Origin: Candidatus Bathyarchaeota archaeon
Lineage (GTDB): Archaea; Thermoproteota; Bathyarchaeia; Bathyarchaeales; Bathycorpusculaceae
Direction: 5' to 3'
Length of the DNA: 64,000 nucleotides
NCBI GenBank assembly: GCA_026014485.1
Contig: JAOZIE010000001.1
Coordinates: 3,336-67,335 of the forward strand
Of this stretch, positions 6,697 to 62,758 are shown piece after piece. The position numbers and the translations under genes are program-made. How positions within the stretch are numbered: the first letter of the stretch is position 1; each line of letters starts with the position of its first letter. The notes under the pieces are model-generated. The model ran no database searches. It saw only the letters and a program-made list of their open reading frames with translations, and was not told the origin of the DNA.

Positions 6697-7629
6697 TTAG
6701 TTGGGTTTGTTGTAGGGTTCTCTTAGCAGATTTGCCTGCATAAACAGTTCTTTGAGTTCTTCGTTGGTTGCTCCGTTTCTCAGGGGCGTTAGGATGTCGG
6801 TGAGGTTGTCGTTTCGCATTAGGCAGGGCTTGAGTTTGCCGTCGCTGGTCACCCGCATCCGCGTGCAGTGCATGCAGAAGTCGCTGTTCTCGGTCGGATG
6901 AACCACCTCCACAGTGACATCGGGCAGGTGATAGATGAGGCGGTTGTGCATGAGTCGCCGGGTCTCGATGCGCAAGGCTTTTTCGCGGAGGGTGGCTTCC
7001 TGTTCGATTAAGAAGCGGTGATGTTTCGAGTAGTATTCGCGGCTCACGTTTATGGGGTCTAACTCGATAAGCTGCAGAATCACGCCTATGTCCCGCGCGA
7101 AATCAATCATCTCAGAAACATCGGTGACGTTTACGCCCCGCAACACAACCATGTTCAGTTTAATCAGCGAAAAACCCGCCTCGATAGCCGCTTGGACTCC
7201 TGCCAAGGCGTTTTCGAGTTTGCCCCCAGTAAGCTTCTGGTAGGTTTCGGGATTCAACGTTGGCAAGCTGATGTTGACGCGTTTTAACCCCGCCGCACGC
7301 AGAGGTTTAGCTAACTCGTCTAGCATCAAGCCGTTGGTGGTCATCGAAAGGTCCCGCAGCCCTGGAATCGCTGCTATTGCCTGGACGAGCTCAACAACGT
7401 CTTGGCGCATTAACGGTTCGCCGCCTGTCAGCTTAATTCGTACGATGCCCAAGCTAACTGCGGTTTTGGCTATACGCACAATCTCGTCCAGAGTCATTTT
7501 TTCGGCGGAAACGTTGGCGCGGGCAACTTCGCCTTCGCGGTGGCAGTAAGTGCATGTTAAGTTGCAGCGCTGAGTAATTGAAATCCTCAAGTTCAGCAGG
7601 GGGCGTCCGCATTTATCCAATAAAGCCAT
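6697..7629 (-). CDS. moaA: GTP 3',8-cyclase (molybdopterin biosynthesis)
   Basis: Radical-SAM CTYCHRE motif (CxxxCxxC context 'RCNLTCTYC'), 'LTGGEPLMR', C-terminal cluster 'NSDFCMHCTRMRVTSDGKLKPCL'; next to moaB, moaC. Confidence 0.95.
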   Translation of the reverse strand: MALLDKCGRPLLNLRISITQRCNLTCTYCHREGEVARANVSAEKMTLDEIVRIAKTAVSLGIVRIKLTGGEPLMRQDVVELVQAIAAIPGLRDLSMTTNGLMLDELAKPLRAAGLKRVNISLPTLNPETYQKLTGGKLENALAGVQAAIEAGFSLIKLNMVVLRGVNVTDVSEMIDFARDIGVILQLIELDPINVSREYYSKHHRFLIEQEATLREKALRIETRRLMHNRLIYHLPDVTVEVVHPTENSDFCMHCTRMRVTSDGKLKPCLMRNDNLTDILTPLRNGATNEELKELFMQANLLREPYNKPN

Positions 7630-7631
7630 CG

Positions 7632-8162
7632 TTATTCCCGAGCATGCTTGACGATATGACCAGCCTCGGGAGATATAAGCAGTTCTACGGCTGTTTTGGC
7701 AGCGTCAGGGGAACCAGGGATGCAAAACAGCACTTTGCCAGCTACGACGCCGGCGACGGCGCGGGTGGTTATGGCGCCTGAACCCATTTTATCGTAGCTT
7801 ATGCGTCGGAAGAATTCGCCAAAGCCAGGCAGAGGCTTCTCAAAGAAAGACGAAACGGTCTCTATTGTTATGTCTGAATGTGTAATGCCTGTGCCGCCGC
7901 AGAAAATCGCCGCTTCAACCCCATCGTTGGCTAAAATGCTTTTGACGGCGTGCTCAATCATGGTTTTCTCGTCGGATACTACGCGTCTAAACAGCACTGT
8001 ATGCCCTGCCGCCTTCAGCAGCGTCTCGATGGTGTCTCCTGAAATGTCTGTTGATTCCTCGCCTCGCTGCATTGCAAGGTAGCGTGAGGTGCTGCAGATG
8101 AAAACAGCGAAAGTCACTTTCCGCGGCGCGTGTGCCTTGTGGGTTTTTGTGCTTTCACTCAA
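7632..8162 (-). CDS. moaB: Molybdenum cofactor biosynthesis protein B
   Basis: 'FCGGTGITHSDITIETV', 'FGEFFRRISYDKMGSGAITTRAVAGV', 'LFCIPGSPDAAKTAVELLI'. Confidence 0.93.
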   Translation of the reverse strand: MSESTKTHKAHAPRKVTFAVFICSTSRYLAMQRGEESTDISGDTIETLLKAAGHTVLFRRVVSDEKTMIEHAVKSILANDGVEAAIFCGGTGITHSDITIETVSSFFEKPLPGFGEFFRRISYDKMGSGAITTRAVAGVVAGKVLFCIPGSPDAAKTAVELLISPEAGHIVKHARE

Positions 8163-8165
8163 AGG

Positions 8166-8603
8166 CTACACCTGCTTGAACTTTTTTACTACGTGAATAT
8201 CCTCAATAGCTGTTGACGGGTACTGCCCCGCCTCGTCTTTCTCGTATTGCTTGGTCATGTCCCAGACTGTGAGCAGCGCAGCAGAAACCGCCGTTAAAGC
8301 CTCCATCTCCACACCTGTCTGCGCCAGGGTTTTAACCAGAGCGGTAACCTCAACAGCGGATTCGCCTGCGACTTTGGCTTCAACTTCCACCTTTGTTAGC
8401 GGTAGGGGGTGGCAAAGCGGAATGAGTTCGCTGCATTTCTTAGCCGCTAAAATCCCCGCTATCTTCGCCGTATACAACGGGTTGCCCTTAGCCGTTTTTC
8501 CCTGCTTGATGAGGGCTATGGTTTCGGGTTTAAGCTTGATTTTACCTGTTGCTGTGGCTTCCCGTAGCGTTTCGGGTTTAGCGGACACGTCAATCATGGT
8601 CAA
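8166..8603 (-). CDS. moaC: Cyclic pyranopterin monophosphate synthase
   Basis: 'MIDVSAKPETLREATATG', 'AAKKCSELIPLCHPLPLT', 'GVEMEALTAVSAALLTVWDMTK'. Confidence 0.95.
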   Translation of the reverse strand: MTMIDVSAKPETLREATATGKIKLKPETIALIKQGKTAKGNPLYTAKIAGILAAKKCSELIPLCHPLPLTKVEVEAKVAGESAVEVTALVKTLAQTGVEMEALTAVSAALLTVWDMTKQYEKDEAGQYPSTAIEDIHVVKKFKQV

Positions 8604-8630
8604 CTCTTTTTCCTCCGTGAATAAGTGTGA

Positions 8631-8909
8631 TTACGTGGTTTCTTTTTCCCAGGCTTCAATCAGTGCCTGCACCACTTTTGCCTTCGCTGAGGCTTGGTTG
8701 AACCTGTACAAGCGTATTCTGCCATATGTCCTTTGCTGCAGGACGCCTTCATCCTCCAGCACCTTTAGATGTTTGCTTGTAGTGGAGAAGTTCAAGTGTA
8801 TTCTACGGGCGACACCTGACACGTTCAGCTCACCCAGCCGCGCCACTAGCTTTAGTATCTTCATCCGCGGCTTCGAAGAAAAAACCTCTTCTAACTCCAT
8901 GCGCTTCAC
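8631..8909 (-). CDS. ArsR-type winged-helix transcriptional regulator
   Basis: 'SSKPRMKILKLVARLGELNVSGVARRIHLNFSTTSKHLKVLEDEGVLQQR' wHTH; overlaps the end of the Orc1/Cdc6 gene. Confidence 0.8.
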   Translation of the reverse strand: MKRMELEEVFSSKPRMKILKLVARLGELNVSGVARRIHLNFSTTSKHLKVLEDEGVLQQRTYGRIRLYRFNQASAKAKVVQALIEAWEKETT

Positions 8910-50300: not shown

Positions 50301-50609
50301 ATGGTTAGAAAAGCACGAATACGGCTAACAAGCACCGATTACAGTAAACTTGAAGAGGTATGCGAAGAACTAAGAAGCATCGCCCAGAAAACAGGAGTCA
50401 AAATCAACGGGCCAGTACCCTTGCCCACTAAACGTCTCCGTGTGCCTGTACTGAAAGCTCCCTCAGGGGAAGGAACCGCCACATGGGACAGGTGGGAAAT
50501 GCGCATCCACAAACGGTTAATCGATATTGACAGCGAAGAACGCGTCATGAGGCGAATCATGCGTATCCGCGTTCCCGAAGAAGTGCATGTCACTATCGAA
50601 CTTATCTAA
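50301..50609 (+). CDS. rps10: 30S ribosomal protein S10 (uS10)
   Basis: '[46 protein letters not shown]...[12 protein letters not shown]'. Confidence 0.96.
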
Positions 50610-50705: not shown

Positions 50706-51545
50706 CTAGAAAACGTAGGGTGTAGCCAACATGTAGGAGGGCACCGCTAAAGCGATGGCAGCAGCAAACAGCATCACCCAGATTTTTTTGTCCCAGTTGT
50801 AGATTTTGTAGCCATCAAGGATTCCGAAGGGGATAAGGTTAAAAATGGCTATAATCGCGTTGAACATCGCAAGCGAAATGAACAGCCACCACCACGGAAA
50901 CGCGAAAAGCGGGTTTAGAGCAAACGAAGCGCCCAGAAACGCCATGGAAAACACCAAGTTCGTAACGGGTCCCGCGATGGAGATTTTACCGATGTCAGCC
51001 ATTTTTGCAGGTCCAGAAATCATGACTGCACCTGGAGAAATCAGTTTGAAAGGCATAACAACGGATACCAAAGTTAAAACTGCGCCCCAAGTAGTTAAAC
51101 GAAACTCTGACCATAAACCTGCCCGCTGCGCCGTAACTTTATGTGCCATTTCATGCACAAAAAAGGAGGCAGTTAAGCCTAACGCGTAAAGTGTGGCTAT
51201 CGTCCAGGTCCATCCAAAGTAGGTCATGTATCCAGCGTAGAAGACGATAGAAAAACCGATACCTATCACCAGCAGGATAGCAACAGCAAGATGCTTGAGT
51301 TCGGTGGGGCTGATGTATATGCGCCCTTTTTTGTTGCGGGGTTGACCAAAACTTACGGAAAACTCATACGAGTTCTGCCTAGGAATGAAAGCTTCAGTGA
51401 CAACTTCTTGTCTTTGAGAGTGAGCAACTCCGATGCGGGGGCAATCGTGATTTTCCGGCAGCCTATGTTGACTGCAAAATTGTCCCCCGCAGTAGGGACA
51501 GTGAAACGGCATAAGGGTTTCTTGCCCACACTTGTGACAGTTCAT
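50706..51545 (-). CDS. AN1-type zinc finger fused to M50 site-2 protease
   Basis: N-terminal 'CHKCGQETLMPFHCPYCGGQFCSQHRLPENHDC'; 'FFVHEMAHKVTAQRAGL' HExxH and 'PFGILDGYKIYNWDKK'. Confidence 0.92.
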   Translation of the reverse strand: MNCHKCGQETLMPFHCPYCGGQFCSQHRLPENHDCPRIGVAHSQRQEVVTEAFIPRQNSYEFSVSFGQPRNKKGRIYISPTELKHLAVAILLVIGIGFSIVFYAGYMTYFGWTWTIATLYALGLTASFFVHEMAHKVTAQRAGLWSEFRLTTWGAVLTLVSVVMPFKLISPGAVMISGPAKMADIGKISIAGPVTNLVFSMAFLGASFALNPLFAFPWWWLFISLAMFNAIIAIFNLIPFGILDGYKIYNWDKKIWVMLFAAAIALAVPSYMLATPYVF

Positions 51546-52666: not shown

Positions 52667-53329
52667 TTAGTTCGGTTGGTCGGATTCTTCGTCGGTTTCT
52701 TCGTCCTGTGGCTCCGAAGATTCAGCGGCTGCCCTTTCCTCTTCGCTTCGCAGCAACAGGTCAATAAGCGCTTTCTCATCCACTTCCGCGCGGGTTCGCC
52801 AATCCAGGTAAAGCTGTTCGTTGTCATCCTGCTGTAGGTATCCGTACCTGACGTATCGGTCGATGTTTAAGCCTATCTTCCAGCCAGGAATTTTTTCACC
52901 CAAAAGTTCCTCTACATCTCTGCGTGCCGCTTGCCCCTTTTTGCTGATAATGTAGGATATGGTTATGGCTAAACCTGCAAGGTCGTCGATTCGCCACCCA
53001 ATCATTTTGGTTTCTTTAGGCTGCAGGTCACCGCGTAAAGTAACGTAAAACCGTGCTTTGTCCAGCTCGTCCAATGTGGGTTTCTCAGGAGCGTTCTCCT
53101 GCTGGAAGACCGTTTTCACCTGCAGATCCAGCGGCTTAAGGAAATCGTCCAGAACATCCAGCACTTTGGGGTAGTCAGAGCCAAGGGCTTTGTGAAGCTC
53201 CCAGCCTCTTACGCCTGGCTTCTGGTGCCTTCGGTAGAACAGTATGTGTGTTGCCCGCTTCATTTTGGCTGCGTATGTGCCTTTTCGTTTGCTACTCATT
53301 CTTTTTCGCCTCGCTTCCACTTCTGCCAA
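52667..53329 (-). CDS. Uncharacterised protein, candidate tandem winged-helix (KITE-like) partner of SMC-like ATPase
   Basis: Two wHTH-like segments ('GVRGWELHKALGSDYPKVLDVLDDFLKPLDLQ'; 'LAITISYIISKKGQAARRDVEELLGEKIPGWKIGLNIDRYVRYGYLQQD'); operon with 53296..54141 and 54144..56072. Confidence 0.7.
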   Translation of the reverse strand: MAEVEARRKRMSSKRKGTYAAKMKRATHILFYRRHQKPGVRGWELHKALGSDYPKVLDVLDDFLKPLDLQVKTVFQQENAPEKPTLDELDKARFYVTLRGDLQPKETKMIGWRIDDLAGLAITISYIISKKGQAARRDVEELLGEKIPGWKIGLNIDRYVRYGYLQQDDNEQLYLDWRTRAEVDEKALIDLLLRSEEERAAAESSEPQDEETDEESDQPN

Positions 53330-54141
53330 CTCTCAAACGAGAGCGTTATGGGTACGGAAACGGCTTGTCGGTGTAGCTTCGCTGAGGGTTCCTGTAGGGG
53401 CATGACAAAGATTTCTTCCTCCAACGGGATAACCTCCAGCGTGGCGTAGCCGTAGGTGACCAGAAAACTGGTTATATAGGCGCGGTGAACCGTCTCCTCG
53501 TATGTGTCGGCGCTTACCCAATCCATGTAATGCAGTTTGCCGTCTTTGCCTTCTGTTTGGGTTTTTGTTTGAAGCGCACTCCAGTAGCGTTCCAGCTCCG
53601 CCGAGAAAGCTTCATCCCGCAGGATGCTTTGGTCAGCGAGTTCCTCTCGGGTGGCGATTCCTATGGGGATTTCAGTAACTGCGGGCTGTTCCCATCTTTC
53701 CCTGAGCGGAACCAATGCGTCCCAGTACCGCAACGCGTCAGCTAAGCTTCTTAGCGTAATCTGTTCCTGCTCAACGATGGGGTGCCATGCCTGCAGGAAA
53801 ATCTGGGTTATTTCCCGCTTGTTTTTCTGCGTGATTTTTTCTTCCAGCAAAAACGGGTCGGTATAGAGGGAGGTGCTGCGTTGTTTTACCCATTCACTCT
53901 GCAGCTTAATCACTGACGCCAAGTGATGGATTGCCTCGGCGTCCAAGGTTAGTTCTTCAGGTTGGTCCCACGTTGGAAAGTACTCTTGGATTATGCGGAT
54001 TATTTCATCCACGTTCAGCAAAAACGGGTCTACAGTGTGCCCTTCGATGCCTTTCATCATGTCGATTACGCGTTCAAGCCTGTCTTTGCCAAGCTTTTTG
54101 GTTTCTTTGCGCGTCTGCCCCTTCGGATTCTGTGCCTGCAA
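53296..54141 (-). CDS. Uncharacterised protein, candidate kleisin-like/bridging partner of SMC-like ATPase
   Basis: 281 aa; 2 nt downstream of the SMC-like gene and overlapping the next gene; family not recognised. Confidence 0.65.
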   Translation of the reverse strand: MQAQNPKGQTRKETKKLGKDRLERVIDMMKGIEGHTVDPFLLNVDEIIRIIQEYFPTWDQPEELTLDAEAIHHLASVIKLQSEWVKQRSTSLYTDPFLLEEKITQKNKREITQIFLQAWHPIVEQEQITLRSLADALRYWDALVPLRERWEQPAVTEIPIGIATREELADQSILRDEAFSAELERYWSALQTKTQTEGKDGKLHYMDWVSADTYEETVHRAYITSFLVTYGYATLEVIPLEEEIFVMPLQEPSAKLHRQAVSVPITLSFESWQKWKRGEKE

Positions 54142-54143
54142 GA

Positions 54144-56072
54144 CTACTGGACCTCCCGAACTGCGGATTTGCCTTCTACGTTCTGCACTGCCACTATGTT
54201 GGCGTTTTCCTGTGCAAACGTGACTTGGCTGGGGGTAATTACGATGTATTGGGCGTTGGCGTCTTTTATGGTGGATATTAGGATTTTGGCAATCATCTCG
54301 CGGTTACGCGGGTCCATGTGGATGTCGTATTCGTCCACTGCGCGGAACGGTGAGCGCACATGCTGCTGCAATGCAAGAAGAAAGCTCATGGTTGCTGTGG
54401 TTCTTTCTCCGCCGCTCTGGGTGTAAGCGTCTAGCGCGACGGGTTTTCCGCCTTTGAAGCCCACTAGAATCTCTAAGCCCGCTGTCTCGATGTCCTGCGC
54501 ATTTGCCAAGCGGACTTCGCCTGCCGCGCGGGTCTGCGCCAGAATTCTTTGGTATTCGCGGTTGACGCGGTCAAGCAAAGCTTCCATGACGTTACGCCAA
54601 GACTGCATCCTGGCTGAAACCTCCTCCAAGGCTTTTTGGCGGTTCTCCGCTACAGTTTGCGCCTTCTCCTTTAGCTCCAAGAAGAGTTTACTGTAGGATT
54701 CGTACTGGCGCTCTATGTCTTCGGAGACGCCTGCAAGCGCGGCTAAGTGCCCGTCGGTGAGGCGAATTTCGTCTTGAAGGTCAGCTGCGTTTTTGGTGAC
54801 GGCGATTCGGGCGCCAGACAAAGACGCCTTGCCAACCGCCGCCTCTAAGGTTGCCTTCGCAATTTTTATTGAAGCCTCCGCTCGGCTCAACTCTTTAGTT
54901 GAGGTTTCCCTGCGGTACTGCAACAGCGCCAGCTTGATTTTGCAGTCTATTAGTTGACTTGTTATTTTGTCCGCTACGCCTTCAGCGTCTTGGGTTTTGG
55001 ATTCAACCGCCCGGATGGTCTCATGAATTTTCGTGAGTTGCCTGTGAGAGGCTTCTACACGTTCCTTGAGGCTCACAGCGCGCAGCATCTTAAGCTGACC
55101 AGCCGCTTGACTGCCCCGAACAGCCTCCTCTAACAGTTCAACTTCCTTAAGCAGTTGCTGAATGAAAGAAACAGTGGATTCCTCCGCAGCGACATCGTGT
55201 TCCAGCTTCACCCGTTCCTCAAAAAGCGTCCTGTTTTCCGCCTTCAGTTTCTCCTGCTGGCTGCTTTGCATTTGCACCTGCTCAGAGTTGTCTGCGGCTT
55301 CTTTTTCGATGCTATCTAGCGTTTCCTGCAGCTTTCGTTTGTTGGCTTCAAGCTCTTTGAGGGCGGTTTCTCTGCGTTCCACCTCTGCCCACGCCAGTTC
55401 ACGTTCCAGAAATCGCCGTTTGGTCTGCAGTTGCTTTTTCTCTTGGTATTTGTCGTATTGTTCCCGCCAGTATTTTAGCGTCTGCTCGGCTGATTCCAGC
55501 AGTTTACCCACGGATTCTGATTGGCTTAGAATGCGGGTTAACTTCTGCTGGGCTTGCACCACGTTTTCGCGAAAAGGCTCCAGCCCAACGGCTGCTTCAA
55601 CCATGCGCAACTTTTCGACTGTGCTGAGGACGCTGAACTGCTCCACCATGTTCTGGTGCATAATAATTAGCATGTTGTCGGGGTCCACGCCGAACCTGCC
55701 CAGCAGCCTTTGCACTTCCTGCTTGCTGGCGGCTTTGTTCTCCAGTTCAAACCAGTATTGCCCGTCGCGTCGGAGGCTGCGGGTGAGGAAAAGCTGGTCT
55801 TTGCTATATTTTGGAACGGGACGTTTGCCGTGCTGTCGGCTGTTGTCTAGAACTACGGTTACGCGTGCTTGGTCTTGTCCCCAGCGGATGAGGTTGCTGA
55901 GTTTCTTGCTGCGTTCCGTGTAGGTCTGCCCCAGAGCCACAGAAATCGCCAGCAGCAACGAGGATTTACCTGCGCCGTTGGGTCCCACAATTAGGTTTAC
56001 GCCTTGCCTGAAGGCTACCCTAGCGTACTCGTAGCTCATGAAATTCTCCAGAATGACTTCAGATATCAGCAT
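54144..56072 (-). CDS. Short SMC-like ATPase (SMC5-/coalescin-like)
   Basis: 'LIVGPNGAGKSSLLLAI' Walker A, coiled coil, 'YTQSGGERTTATMSFLLALQQHVRSPFRAVDEYDIHMDPRNREMIAKIL' signature/Walker B. Confidence 0.92.
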   Translation of the reverse strand: MLISEVILENFMSYEYARVAFRQGVNLIVGPNGAGKSSLLLAISVALGQTYTERSKKLSNLIRWGQDQARVTVVLDNSRQHGKRPVPKYSKDQLFLTRSLRRDGQYWFELENKAASKQEVQRLLGRFGVDPDNMLIIMHQNMVEQFSVLSTVEKLRMVEAAVGLEPFRENVVQAQQKLTRILSQSESVGKLLESAEQTLKYWREQYDKYQEKKQLQTKRRFLERELAWAEVERRETALKELEANKRKLQETLDSIEKEAADNSEQVQMQSSQQEKLKAENRTLFEERVKLEHDVAAEESTVSFIQQLLKEVELLEEAVRGSQAAGQLKMLRAVSLKERVEASHRQLTKIHETIRAVESKTQDAEGVADKITSQLIDCKIKLALLQYRRETSTKELSRAEASIKIAKATLEAAVGKASLSGARIAVTKNAADLQDEIRLTDGHLAALAGVSEDIERQYESYSKLFLELKEKAQTVAENRQKALEEVSARMQSWRNVMEALLDRVNREYQRILAQTRAAGEVRLANAQDIETAGLEILVGFKGGKPVALDAYTQSGGERTTATMSFLLALQQHVRSPFRAVDEYDIHMDPRNREMIAKILISTIKDANAQYIVITPSQVTFAQENANIVAVQNVEGKSAVREVQ

Positions 56073-56307: not shown

Positions 56308-56955
56308 ATGAAGAACTCAGTGAAGTGGTTTGGCGCCGCCGTATGTATAGTTGTTTTAGCGGCTAGTTTAACCGCTTTTTTCTTTGAAACTCAAAGTGTA
56401 GCTCCAAACACTACTCGGGTCGCCTGCGTTGGTGATAGTATTACTCGAGACACGGATTATCCTGATATTTTATCGACAATGCTTGGAGCTAACTATACAG
56501 TGGGAAATTTTGGGGTTGGTCGAACTACGGTCTCTCTTGACTTCAACAAACCTTACATGAATCAGCCCCTGTACCAAGAGGCACTGAGATTTAATCCTAA
56601 CATAGTGGTTATTATGCTGGGAACTAATGATGCTTACCTTAGTGAGCAGCAACGCAGCAACTTCATAAATGACTATAAGGTATTGATTGCCTCGTTCCAA
56701 TCGCTGTCAGCCCAACCTGAAATCTACATCGTTATTCCACCGCCAGCTTTCAATAACACCATGGGACTTCCGCCTACAATCTTAGACGATGAAGTAATAC
56801 CGCTAGTCAACCAAACTGCAGCCGAACTTGGACTACCAACAATTGACATATACACACCGCTACTTGGTAATCCCCAAGCCTTCAAAGACGGGGTGCACCC
56901 CAATACTGAAGGGTCACAAGTGGTAGCATCAGAAATCTATAAAGCCATAATCTAA
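56308..56955 (+). CDS. SGNH/GDSL hydrolase, secreted or membrane-anchored (copy 1)
   Basis: 'RVACVGDSITRDTDYP', 'NFGVGRTTV', 'VIMLGTNDAY', 'FKDGVHPN'. Confidence 0.93.
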   Translation: MKNSVKWFGAAVCIVVLAASLTAFFFETQSVAPNTTRVACVGDSITRDTDYPDILSTMLGANYTVGNFGVGRTTVSLDFNKPYMNQPLYQEALRFNPNIVVIMLGTNDAYLSEQQRSNFINDYKVLIASFQSLSAQPEIYIVIPPPAFNNTMGLPPTILDDEVIPLVNQTAAELGLPTIDIYTPLLGNPQAFKDGVHPNTEGSQVVASEIYKAII

Positions 56956-57107
56956 GCTGCATACGATAACTTTTTGAGCCCTATTCTTGCTTAATGAAGC
57001 TTAAATTGCCTAAATTTATAACGTTTTCCAAAAAATTCTATGTAAAACAACATATATTAAGCAAGAAACATATATTTTAAGTAAGGGAGGCAGGTCGGCG
57101 TTTTGGT

Positions 57108-58190
57108 TTGGAAAAACTCAACCAACGCAGAAGCCGCGCCCTTAACGTTGACTTAATCCGGACGATAGCCATAATAGGAGTCATTTTGGTACATGCGTCA
57201 GGTCGATGGACGGTTGATCCCCAGCGTTTCACTCAAATGACCCAAACAGAAACCGCCTGTTGGGGTGTAGTCTGCATCTATCAAAGTTTGGCAACCATCG
57301 GGGTTCCCTTGTTCGCAATGTTAACTGGCGCACTTCTGCTTCAACCGGGAAAGAAAGAAAGCATTCGCGCCTTCTTCAAGAAAAGATGGCTACGTGTAGG
57401 TCTACCTTTCATATTTTGGGGCGCCATCTATTTTATCTGGGATTTCACCGTAATAAAAATCCCCTTCTCGGTAGGCGCCATCATACAAGGCATACTAAAT
57501 GGCCCCTACACCCACTTTTGGTACGGCTACGTACTCGTGGGTTTGTACCTTATGACGCCGATACTACGCGTCCTCTTAGAGAAAGCCGACCAAACAATCA
57601 TGAAGTACTTTGTGGCAATATGGTTTCTGGGGGTAACCATTACGCCACTCATCGGAGTCTTGACGCCTTACACTTTAAGAGCAAGCCTTTTCACTCTGGA
57701 CCTGTTTGTCGGCTACTTCTTTTTAGGCACCTACCTCTTAACAGTCCAAATCCGTCGCCAAACCACACTGATGCTTATGATTCTCGGATTCGCCTTAACT
57801 GTAGCCTTGACTTACCTGCTGGCAGCCACCGTAGGAGGATCGAAGATGTATCTTTTTCAACAGTACTTCAGTCCGACTGTGATTCTGGCGTCAGCAATGG
57901 TTTTCCTGCTATTGGCAACTATCCAGCCGCCCTCAACAGGGAAAAAGCCCAACCGCTCCAGATCAAATAAACTATTAGGAGTGATTAGCGCAAACACGCT
58001 ATCGCTGTATCTTCTCCACGTGATGATCTTGGAGTCAATTCAAAACGGCTATTTCGGCTTCACCATTAACCGCAACATAATCAGCCCAACAATCAGTGTT
58101 CCAATAGAAACAGCAATAACCCTGTTTATTTCGCTTGGAATAATCCTGCTACTGAAAAAAGTGCCATACCTCCAAAAACTAATCGGATAA
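57108..58190 (+). CDS. Acyltransferase 3 family membrane protein (TTG start)
   Basis: 'RALNVDLIRTIAIIGVILVHASGRW', multiple TM segments. Confidence 0.9.
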   Translation: MEKLNQRRSRALNVDLIRTIAIIGVILVHASGRWTVDPQRFTQMTQTETACWGVVCIYQSLATIGVPLFAMLTGALLLQPGKKESIRAFFKKRWLRVGLPFIFWGAIYFIWDFTVIKIPFSVGAIIQGILNGPYTHFWYGYVLVGLYLMTPILRVLLEKADQTIMKYFVAIWFLGVTITPLIGVLTPYTLRASLFTLDLFVGYFFLGTYLLTVQIRRQTTLMLMILGFALTVALTYLLAATVGGSKMYLFQQYFSPTVILASAMVFLLLATIQPPSTGKKPNRSRSNKLLGVISANTLSLYLLHVMILESIQNGYFGFTINRNIISPTISVPIETAITLFISLGIILLLKKVPYLQKLIG

Positions 58191-58337
58191 AAACAAGCAA
58201 AAACTTGACGCATCGTCAAAATTAATTGTGCCTTTTAGTCTGAAGCATAAATGTTGTCGTAAATTCTTATATTCAACTTTAAGGTCAATTCATAATAGAG
58301 AAAGACGCTAAAACAGAATTAGCGGCACGAATGTCAG

Positions 58338-59006
58338 ATGGATAGAAAAAAATTTTTAACCAGTGTATTGGTCATTCTGTTAATGCTTTCGGGAACTGTG
58401 GCATTGATGGTTTTGTCCACCTGGAAGAGAAAACCTGCTTCAGAAACAATCCGCGTTGCCTGCGTTGGTGACAGTCTTACGCAGTCGACCGTTTATCCAT
58501 ATGAGCTAAGGAGACTGCTTGGCGCAAACTACACGGTCAGAAACTTTGGAGTTGGCTCTACAACGGTTCTTCTCAACACTGATACTGCATACATGAATAC
58601 AAGTATGTTCCAAAAAGCCTTGGAGTTCCAGCCGAACATAGTCATCATTATGCTGGGAACAAATGATGCTCAGCCAAACCTTGAAGTATTCAACGCAAGC
58701 TTCGTGGGGGACTACGTGAAGTTGGTGGCTGCGTTCCAAGAGCTCCTAAGTAATCCCAGAATATGGGCAGTTCTGCCACCGCCGATTTTCAGCAATCAAT
58801 CAGGCAAGATAGACCCCCAATACTTCGAGCTCACATTAATTCCAAACATAAAACAGGCTGCAAATGAAACAGATGTGCTGTTAATCGACGTCTATTCGGC
58901 TTTGACCAACTACTCCGAAGACTTCCCGGACGGAGTCCACCCCAATGATGCAGCCGCAAAGATCATCGCTAATACGATATATGAGACGTTAATCCTCAAT
59001 CTTTGA
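58338..59006 (+). CDS. SGNH/GDSL hydrolase, secreted or membrane-anchored (copy 2)
   Basis: 'RVACVGDSLTQSTVYP', 'NFGVGSTTVLL', 'IIMLGTNDAQ', 'FPDGVHPND'. Confidence 0.93.
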   Translation: MDRKKFLTSVLVILLMLSGTVALMVLSTWKRKPASETIRVACVGDSLTQSTVYPYELRRLLGANYTVRNFGVGSTTVLLNTDTAYMNTSMFQKALEFQPNIVIIMLGTNDAQPNLEVFNASFVGDYVKLVAAFQELLSNPRIWAVLPPPIFSNQSGKIDPQYFELTLIPNIKQAANETDVLLIDVYSALTNYSEDFPDGVHPNDAAAKIIANTIYETLILNL

Positions 59007-62062: not shown

Positions 62063-62758
62063 ATGGTTGTCGCGGGAAAAATTTTCAAGTTAACCCAACT
62101 CATCTCGATGGCGGATGTCGCCTCCAAACTCAACGGTTTCCACGTCGAAGAGGACTTTGAGGAAGGCAACTACAAATTTAAACTAATAACTGAAGTTGTG
62201 GGCTTGGAGGCTAAACGGGATGTGCTTAGCGGAACCTACTCAAACGACACCATAACGCACGTTTTCCACCGAGGCACCATGGCGCAGCTGCCCCAAACCG
62301 TGGAGGCGACGTTTAGCTTCGCCAAAGCAGAGGACACAACTTTTTTGACGGTTGTGGAGAAGAAGCGAGTAGCCAACTTCATCGCCAACAAGCTCAGCCA
62401 AATCCTCTTCGAGAAAGCCGGCGCCATAACAGAAGCAAAAATCACTCCTGAAACGCTCAAGGCATTCCACGACAGAAACCCTGAAGAGACAAAAATCACG
62501 TTCTTTGACAACGTGGACATCCCCAACGTTGAGAAGCTGAGTCTCTATGGTCCAGACTTAAACAACACCTCACTGTTTGGGGACTATATGAAGCACGGTA
62601 ACCTCTGGTACGTCGTGGGACGCTCCAAAGAAACAGGCTACGTGGTGGGTATAACGCGAGATGCGTCGGTGACGATTTTCAATTTGACAGACAAAAGCAA
62701 GTATGTTCAATACGTAGCCAAAGAGATCTACCCCCTGATACGCTCAACCCCCAAATAA
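62063..62758 (+). CDS. Hypothetical protein
   Basis: 231 aa, compositionally normal; no recognised family. Confidence 0.7.
   Translation: MVVAGKIFKLTQLISMADVASKLNGFHVEEDFEEGNYKFKLITEVVGLEAKRDVLSGTYSNDTITHVFHRGTMAQLPQTVEATFSFAKAEDTTFLTVVEKKRVANFIANKLSQILFEKAGAITEAKITPETLKAFHDRNPEETKITFFDNVDIPNVEKLSLYGPDLNNTSLFGDYMKHGNLWYVVGRSKETGYVVGITRDASVTIFNLTDKSKYVQYVAKEIYPLIRSTPK

Follow-up and report, generated by a model that had tools for sequence, protein, structure and literature searches.

A three-gene operon of Bathyarchaeota for a probable hinge-less SMC-kleisin-KITE complex of the Smc5/6 type

In bacteria, chromosomes are folded with the help of complexes that combine an SMC (structural maintenance of chromosomes) ATPase with a kleisin and a KITE, among them Smc-ScpAB and MukBEF. 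The eukaryotic Smc5/6 core (Smc5-Smc6-Nse4-Nse1-Nse3) has two SMCs and two KITEs, and Wadjet is likewise an SMC-kleisin-KITE system (PMC10586767). In archaea, a KITE is said to be generally missing from SMC complexes, and archaeal Smc-ScpA is reported to function without one (PMC7055376). An archaeal clade of "SMC5/6-related" SMC proteins, credited to Yoshinaga and Inagaki (2021), is already known and, according to the accessible part of PMC9389158, branches with eukaryotic SMC5 and SMC6; that part of the account mentions neither partner genes nor a missing hinge. Here, we describe an operon in a stretch of 64,000 nucleotides from a Candidatus Bathyarchaeota archaeon (contig JAOZIE010000001.1, positions 3,336 to 67,335; the whole stretch is referred to as the window). 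Its three genes very probably encode a three-subunit SMC-kleisin-KITE complex that is a simplified form of the Smc5/6 type. In their order on the minus strand, they are as follows.

54144..56072, minus strand: gene 1, SMC ATPase, open reading frame (ORF) of 642 amino acids (aa), ATG start
53296..54141, minus strand: gene 2, predicted kleisin, ORF of 281 aa, TTG start
52667..53329, minus strand: gene 3, predicted KITE, ORF of 220 aa as listed, TTG start

An earlier note on this DNA had described three tightly coupled genes with a 2-nt gap and then an overlap, and the ORFs were found exactly so. Two nucleotides lie between the gene 1 stop and the gene 2 start, and gene 3, with the listed TTG as its start, shares 34 nt with gene 2. 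An internal ATG of gene 3 at 53299..53297 is a better match to the family alignment than this TTG. It lies over the gene 2 stop codon (53298..53296) as ATGA, reducing the overlap to 4 nt, and is probably the conserved start (ORF 52667..53299).

The ATPase and its two partners

The conservation of motifs and the composition of the central region of the SMC were analyzed in 43 divergent family members from many families. The main features of the protein are listed below.

55962..55985, minus strand: Walker A, GPNGAGKS, residues 30-37 (G30, P31, N32, G33, G35, K36 and S37 invariant in the 43 members)
54402..54419, minus strand: ABC signature, QSGGER, residues 552-557 (S553-R557 invariant in the 43 members)
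54330..54347, minus strand: Walker B, FRAVDE, residues 576-581, followed by the YDIHMDP D-loop (R577, D580, E581, H585 and D587 invariant in the 43 members)
54612..55565, minus strand: central coiled-coil hairpin, about residues 170-487, with neither hinge domain nor zinc hook in its sequence

The bipartite ABC ATPase head is complete, with Walker A, signature and Walker B all intact, a Q-loop reading MHQ and a Walker B/D-loop stretch reading FRAVDEYDIHMDP; Pfam SMC_N matches the protein at 2.7e-37. The SMC head motifs noticed earlier are genuine, their key residues being invariant in the 43 members. The best matches of the window ATPase in the PDB were Smc5 (1.1e-32) and Smc6. When the profile of the 43 members was used instead, the top ten matches were all yeast or human Smc5 or Smc6 (240 to 198 bits), while Pyrococcus SMC reached 183 bits and condensin or cohesin SMCs at most 165 bits. 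The canonical SMC of this genome (1182 aa), used as a control, matched Pyrococcus SMC with 350 bits and Smc5 with only 29.8 bits, and Smc6 was not among its PDB matches at an E value of ≤1e-5. By these comparisons, the window SMC is more similar to eukaryotic Smc5/Smc6 than to any canonical SMC, in agreement with the SMC5-type head proposed in the earlier note. Its N-terminal head is nearest to Smc6 and its C-terminal head to Smc5, the pattern expected of an undivided Smc5/6 relative. In a maximum likelihood tree of the heads, with the Rad50 of the same genome as the outgroup, grouping with Smc5/Smc6 was favored by 15 to 16 log units; few eukaryotic sequences were included and the Smc5/Smc6 branches are very long, which limits the exact placement of Smc5/Smc6.

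The short coiled coils without a canonical hinge that had been suspected were also found. The region between the two head halves measures 237 to 359 aa (median of 280) in the 43 members, with 3.9% Gly plus Pro, and no hinge-like stretch was seen in it at the sequence level. In contrast, the canonical SMC of the same genome has 850 residues between its heads, with a clear Gly/Pro- and beta-rich center. Pfam SMC_hinge gave no match in the window ATPase at an E value of ≤10 and was absent among the families listed for the 43 members, all of which also lacked a CxxC zinc hook. Among the matches listed in a scan of the phylum, SMCs of the window type lay in open frames of ≤762 codons. Thus, the window ATPase has coil arms of ca. 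120 to 180 residues and, going by its primary structure, lacks the hinge of SMC proteins in the strict sense.

Gene 2 pointed to Nse4. Matches to the Pfam family Nse4_C were present in 59 of 65 Bathyarchaeia members (best, 1.8e-6) and in 31 of 47 members of a wider set (best, 5.6e-9), the next families being found in only 8 and 2 members. A phylum-wide profile matched Nse4 (1.2e-5) and human EID3 (4.8e-5) in the PDB, followed by the C- and N-domains of ScpA at 0.04 to 0.06, and was clearer than a profile of Bathyarchaeia only, for which the Nse4 matches were marginal. The AlphaFold2 (AF2) model (pLDDT, 78; pTM, 0.41) combines an N-terminal helical domain with a confident C-terminal winged helix, and its first Foldseek matches were Nse4, then ScpA and other kleisins.

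53860..54123, minus strand: kleisin N-terminal helical domain, residues 7-94, with a long third helix (AF2; weak match to ScpA N-domain 6ivh, E value of 0.058)
53398..53616, minus strand: kleisin C-terminal winged helix, residues 176-248 (AF2 pLDDT of 90-96 over most of it; Nse4_C match)

The protein thus shows the kleisin architecture of an N-terminal helical domain, a linker and a C-terminal winged helix, with weak support for the first of these; the winged helix also aligned with that of ScpA (4i99_C) with a TMt of 0.75. The N-terminal domain would be expected to bind the SMC neck and the winged helix the SMC head cap. ScpA itself was rejected as a model for gene 2, the ScpA family having no match anywhere in this genome.

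The AF2 model of gene 3 (pLDDT, 77) consists of two winged helices in tandem.

53036..53293, minus strand: KITE winged helix 1, about residues 13-98 (AF2: helices 13-32, 42-49 and 53-67; strands 69-74 and 93-98)
52718..52990, minus strand: KITE winged helix 2 and C-terminal helix, about residues 114-204 (AF2: helices 114-129, 136-146 and 152-161; strands 165-167 and 172-175; helix 185-204)

All five Foldseek matches below 1e-3 were KITE complexes (Nse1-Nse3-Nse4 at 8.8e-5, MAGE-G1/NSE1 and MukEF), and ScpB and further MukE chains came next. The commonest Pfam matches in the wider set were MAGE (Nse3) in 11 of 47 members and SMC_Nse1 in 8 of 47, each with a best value of 1.2e-4. The best PDB match of the phylum-wide profile, the MAGE-domain chain of 7dg2, was weak (0.21), and a profile of Bathyarchaeia only gave nothing above noise. 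With its two winged helices in tandem, the predicted structure of gene 3 is that of a KITE, nearest in fold to Nse1 and Nse3.

The earlier note had proposed a KITE and a kleisin as the partners and had suggested comparing both with these folds. Profiles and models agree with the two types; the implied order of coordinates was swapped, since 53296..54141 is the predicted kleisin and 52667..53329 the predicted KITE. Nor are the partners, which had been taken to be undescribed, of unknown ancestry: one is recognizably related to Nse4 and the other to Nse1/Nse3. The structure and co-occurrence of the operon genes (see below), together with the profile and fold searches, all point to the SMC-KITE-kleisin set that had been put forward.

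Several results weigh against an assignment of the three proteins to a complex of the Smc5/6 type. The window gene 2 falls under the Nse4_C cut-off (16.4 bits versus 26), although a member from another locus (L125) passes it with 30.8 bits; the pTM of the whole-length kleisin model is low, and its best Foldseek E values range from 1.4e-3 to 0.05. None of 10 individually scanned KITEs reached the MAGE or Nse1 cut-off. An SMC without a hinge gives no assurance of a closed SMC ring. Finally, the approximately unbiased test leaves alternatives to the Smc5/Smc6 grouping unrejected (P values of 0.27 and 0.15), so that the phylogeny is supportive only.

Distribution, host genome and linked genes

The conservation of the trio, which the earlier note had wished to see checked, was assessed in 400 genomes sampled from across the phylum. 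Each of the three genes was present in 159, all three in 154 and any of them in 164, with phi values of 0.95 to 0.98, which the relatedness of the genomes inflates. In the best 80 Bathyarchaeia loci, examined for partner genes, both accompanied the SMC gene in 78, nearly always directly after it, and the association is thus far from chance. A comparison of 40 loci, for the most part from different families, showed the order SMC-kleisin-KITE to be almost always preserved. The exceptions were L126, with the SMC on the opposite strand; L146, where it is ca. 0.4 kb away; L140 and L159, with no SMC in the stretch; and L134, which also lacks an SMC in the stretch and has 1.9 kb (6771-8669) between kleisin and KITE. 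At a further locus, an insertion of ca. 2.5 kb (L076:8043-10582) breaks an otherwise contiguous operon.

The nearest relatives were almost all from Bathyarchaeota metagenome-assembled genomes, and the three genes are jointly absent from 11 near relatives in the same family. The kleisin was not found on plasmids, the SMC on phages or the KITE on viral contigs, and viral matches to the SMC were partial and distant only.

The host genome has one SMC of the window type, one kleisin and one KITE; given this single copy of each gene, SMC and KITE probably act as homodimers. On contig 11 of the same genome (L161:3343-8193), another operon carries the canonical 1182-aa SMC, an ScpA-like ORF, to which the Pfam ScpA model gave no match, and ScpB, again in the order SMC-kleisin-KITE. 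Contig 2 (L164:1119-4426) carries a Rad50 with a CPVC hook and an adjoining Mre11-like gene. The window operon therefore represents a second, separate SMC complex.

Two other genes are linked to the operon in many genomes, one of which has a member in the window.

62063..62758, plus strand: uncharacterized protein of 231 aa, candidate associated factor (family A7; own-genome match, G000:C2:65392-66078)

Members of A7 (ca. 235 aa; for instance, L003:5105-5833, L131:3488-4165 and L143:7002-7697) lie divergently upstream of the SMC gene, head to head within ca. 0.6 kb in 14 of 50 loci compared. In the survey of 400 genomes, A7 and SMC occurred together in 134 (phi, 0.80). The gene in the window is ca. 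6 kb from the SMC gene, with other genes between, while the distance elsewhere is usually <0.6 kb. No credible match to A7 was found in the PDB or NCBIfam, and the one member scanned against Pfam had none. The other linked gene encodes an Lhr-type helicase (DEAD, Helicase_C, DEAD_assoc and WH_Lhr domains). In 18 of 40 divergent loci (L125:7373-10270, L130:7323-10241, L135:2547-5450 and others), it lies on the opposite strand, tail to tail with the KITE gene, and ends ≤0.5 kb from it. Both Lhr genes of the host genome are located elsewhere than the window operon. Lhr helicases have roles in recombination and in the repair of DNA, and this linkage is the main hint, an indirect one, at the function of the complex. 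Several widespread "neighbor families" were not considered further, as they resembled ORFs antisense to the SMC and helicase genes.

Regarding the surroundings of the operon, the space between the SMC gene and the A7 gene is occupied by genes at 56308-59006 (plus strand) that, judged by eye, encode two similar SGNH/GDSL-like secreted proteins on either side of a membrane acyltransferase-like gene. On the other side, an S10-like ribosomal gene (50301-50609) lies ca. 2 kb from the operon, and the ORF at 50706-51545 (minus strand) appears by eye to encode a membrane M50-type metalloprotease with a HEMAH motif and an N-terminal AN1-like zinc finger. RNA polymerase, L30e-like and NusA-like genes are found near the operon in several Bathyarchaeia (L034:194-4806; also L001, L008, L023 and L025).

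Comparison with known systems and rival explanations

With the eukaryotic Smc5/6 core, the window system has in common Smc5/Smc6-like heads, an Nse4-like kleisin, an Nse1/Nse3-like tandem winged-helix KITE and the absence of a HAWK subunit, none having been found for it. It differs in having a single SMC and a single KITE gene in its genome, instead of the Smc5-Smc6 and Nse1-Nse3 heterodimers, and in an SMC with much shorter coil arms and no hinge domain. Nse2, Nse5 and Nse6 were not found beside the operon, and neither an Nse2 SUMO ligase nor an Nse1 RING was noticed among the conserved neighbors, the remaining genome not having been searched for them. The window SMC probably belongs to the archaeal "SMC5/6-related" clade. 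Smc-ScpA-ScpB of bacteria and some archaea has the same subunit classes in the same gene order, but ScpA and ScpB are other branches, and the version in this genome has a full 1182-aa SMC with a hinge. MukBEF and Wadjet JetABC share the KITE fold, MukE being among the top Foldseek matches of gene 3, but the window SMC has no MukB-like similarity in its head, and no JetD nuclease (TOPRIM) is present in the operon. Rad50 is set apart by its zinc hook and neighboring Mre11, both of which the window SMC lacks and the genuine Rad50-Mre11 pair elsewhere in the genome has.

Given that bacterial Smc-ScpAB and MukBEF are chromosome-folding machines, the same three subunits could have another job, namely, condensin-like organization or segregation of the chromosome, instead of acting as a clamp in repair or recombination. 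The chromosomal location and wide retention of the genes would suit this role. However, a canonical SMC with an ScpA-like neighbor and ScpB is already present in the cell, the linked helicase is of the Lhr type, and short hinge-less arms fit local clamping better than long-range folding; in addition, the 11 near relatives without any of the three genes indicate that the complex is dispensable. Such a role appears rather unlikely to us. A role in defense like that of Wadjet (JetABCD) or Lamassu, in which the SMC complex would sense plasmids or viruses, is improbable and was rejected. Wadjet has the same subunit classes, and the ATPase, although not its partners, is weakly similar to LmuB, JetC and MADS_3 models, but no nuclease or other effector adjoins the operon, kleisin and KITE had no PADLOC match, and the heads resemble Smc5/6. 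The stable operon with its near-perfect co-occurrence over many families, the absence of its genes from plasmids, phages and viral contigs, as detailed above, and the partial and distant viral SMC matches argue in the same direction.

It is very improbable that the ATPase is an SMC-like repair protein of the RecF/RecN/Rad50 type whose operon neighbors are just two DNA-binding regulators with winged helices. Short coils without a hinge are indeed reminiscent of RecN and RecF, archaeal transcription factors often contain winged helices, and PaaX and HTH_27 were among the weak matches of gene 3. Yet the best folds for the partners were kleisin and KITE chains, not transcription factors, their most frequent Pfam matches were Nse4, MAGE/Nse3 and Nse1, and the head is like that of Smc5/6 and unlike that of Rad50 or RecF. 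The "coalescin-like" label given to the ATPase in the earlier note had to be dropped, and membership in the coalescin/ASRP clade has hardly any probability left. Both are compact archaeal SMC-like ATPases of comparable size (ca. 600 to 690 aa), but the window SMC scored 50.8 bits with the ASRP model against a cut-off of 300, and the CxxC zinc hook missing from the 43 members is present in the vast majority of ASRPs (PMC9389158). Moreover, ASRPs are reported to have no conserved neighbors, unlike the window SMC with its kleisin and KITE partners.

Proposed mechanism and implications

For a complex of the Smc5/6 type, we infer how the three proteins would assemble, in which stoichiometry, and that they would clamp DNA. 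Two copies of the hinge-less ATPase would pair via their heads. They would be bridged by one Nse4-like kleisin, which would contact the neck of one copy through its N-terminal helical domain and the head of the other through its C-terminal winged helix. The Nse1/Nse3-like KITE would form a homodimer and rest on the middle of the kleisin. Upon ATP binding, a segment of DNA would be clamped between the KITE dimer and the engaged heads, to be freed by hydrolysis. Given the coil arms of ca. 120 to 180 residues and the lack of a hinge, we propose a local DNA clamp or a short-step translocator, not a long-range loop extruder, which may act on recombination, repair or replication intermediates beside the canonical SMC operon and the Rad50-Mre11 of the same cell. 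The repair role is suggested by analogy with Smc5/6 and by the linkage to Lhr, and we hold it with much less confidence than the complex as such.

A further reading, tentative and somewhat less than evenly balanced in our opinion, is that the operon is a living pre-duplication Smc5/6, in which a hinge-less homodimeric SMC, one Nse4 and one ancestral Nse1/Nse3 KITE are helped by the A7 family and the Lhr-type helicase. A study by van Hooff et al. (2025, Cell Rep 44:115855), which according to its title traces SMC complexes from archaeal ancestors, may already cover archaeal partners that resemble Nse4 or Nse1/3. What is new beside the known archaeal SMC5/6-related clade would be the hinge-less Smc5/6-like complex with one SMC and one KITE, of which the partners may have been described already. 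It would represent a widespread archaeal SMC complex (ca. 40% of the phylum) that has a KITE, with subunits tied by sequence and predicted fold to Nse4 and Nse1/Nse3. If the pre-duplication reading is true, an SMC-kleisin-KITE machine can do without a hinge, and the eukaryotic Smc5/6 complex has an archaeal root. If confirmed, this small set of three genes would allow tests of the working of Smc5/6, of the need for a hinge and of what had been passed on to eukaryotes before the duplications that gave Smc5/Smc6 and Nse1/Nse3.

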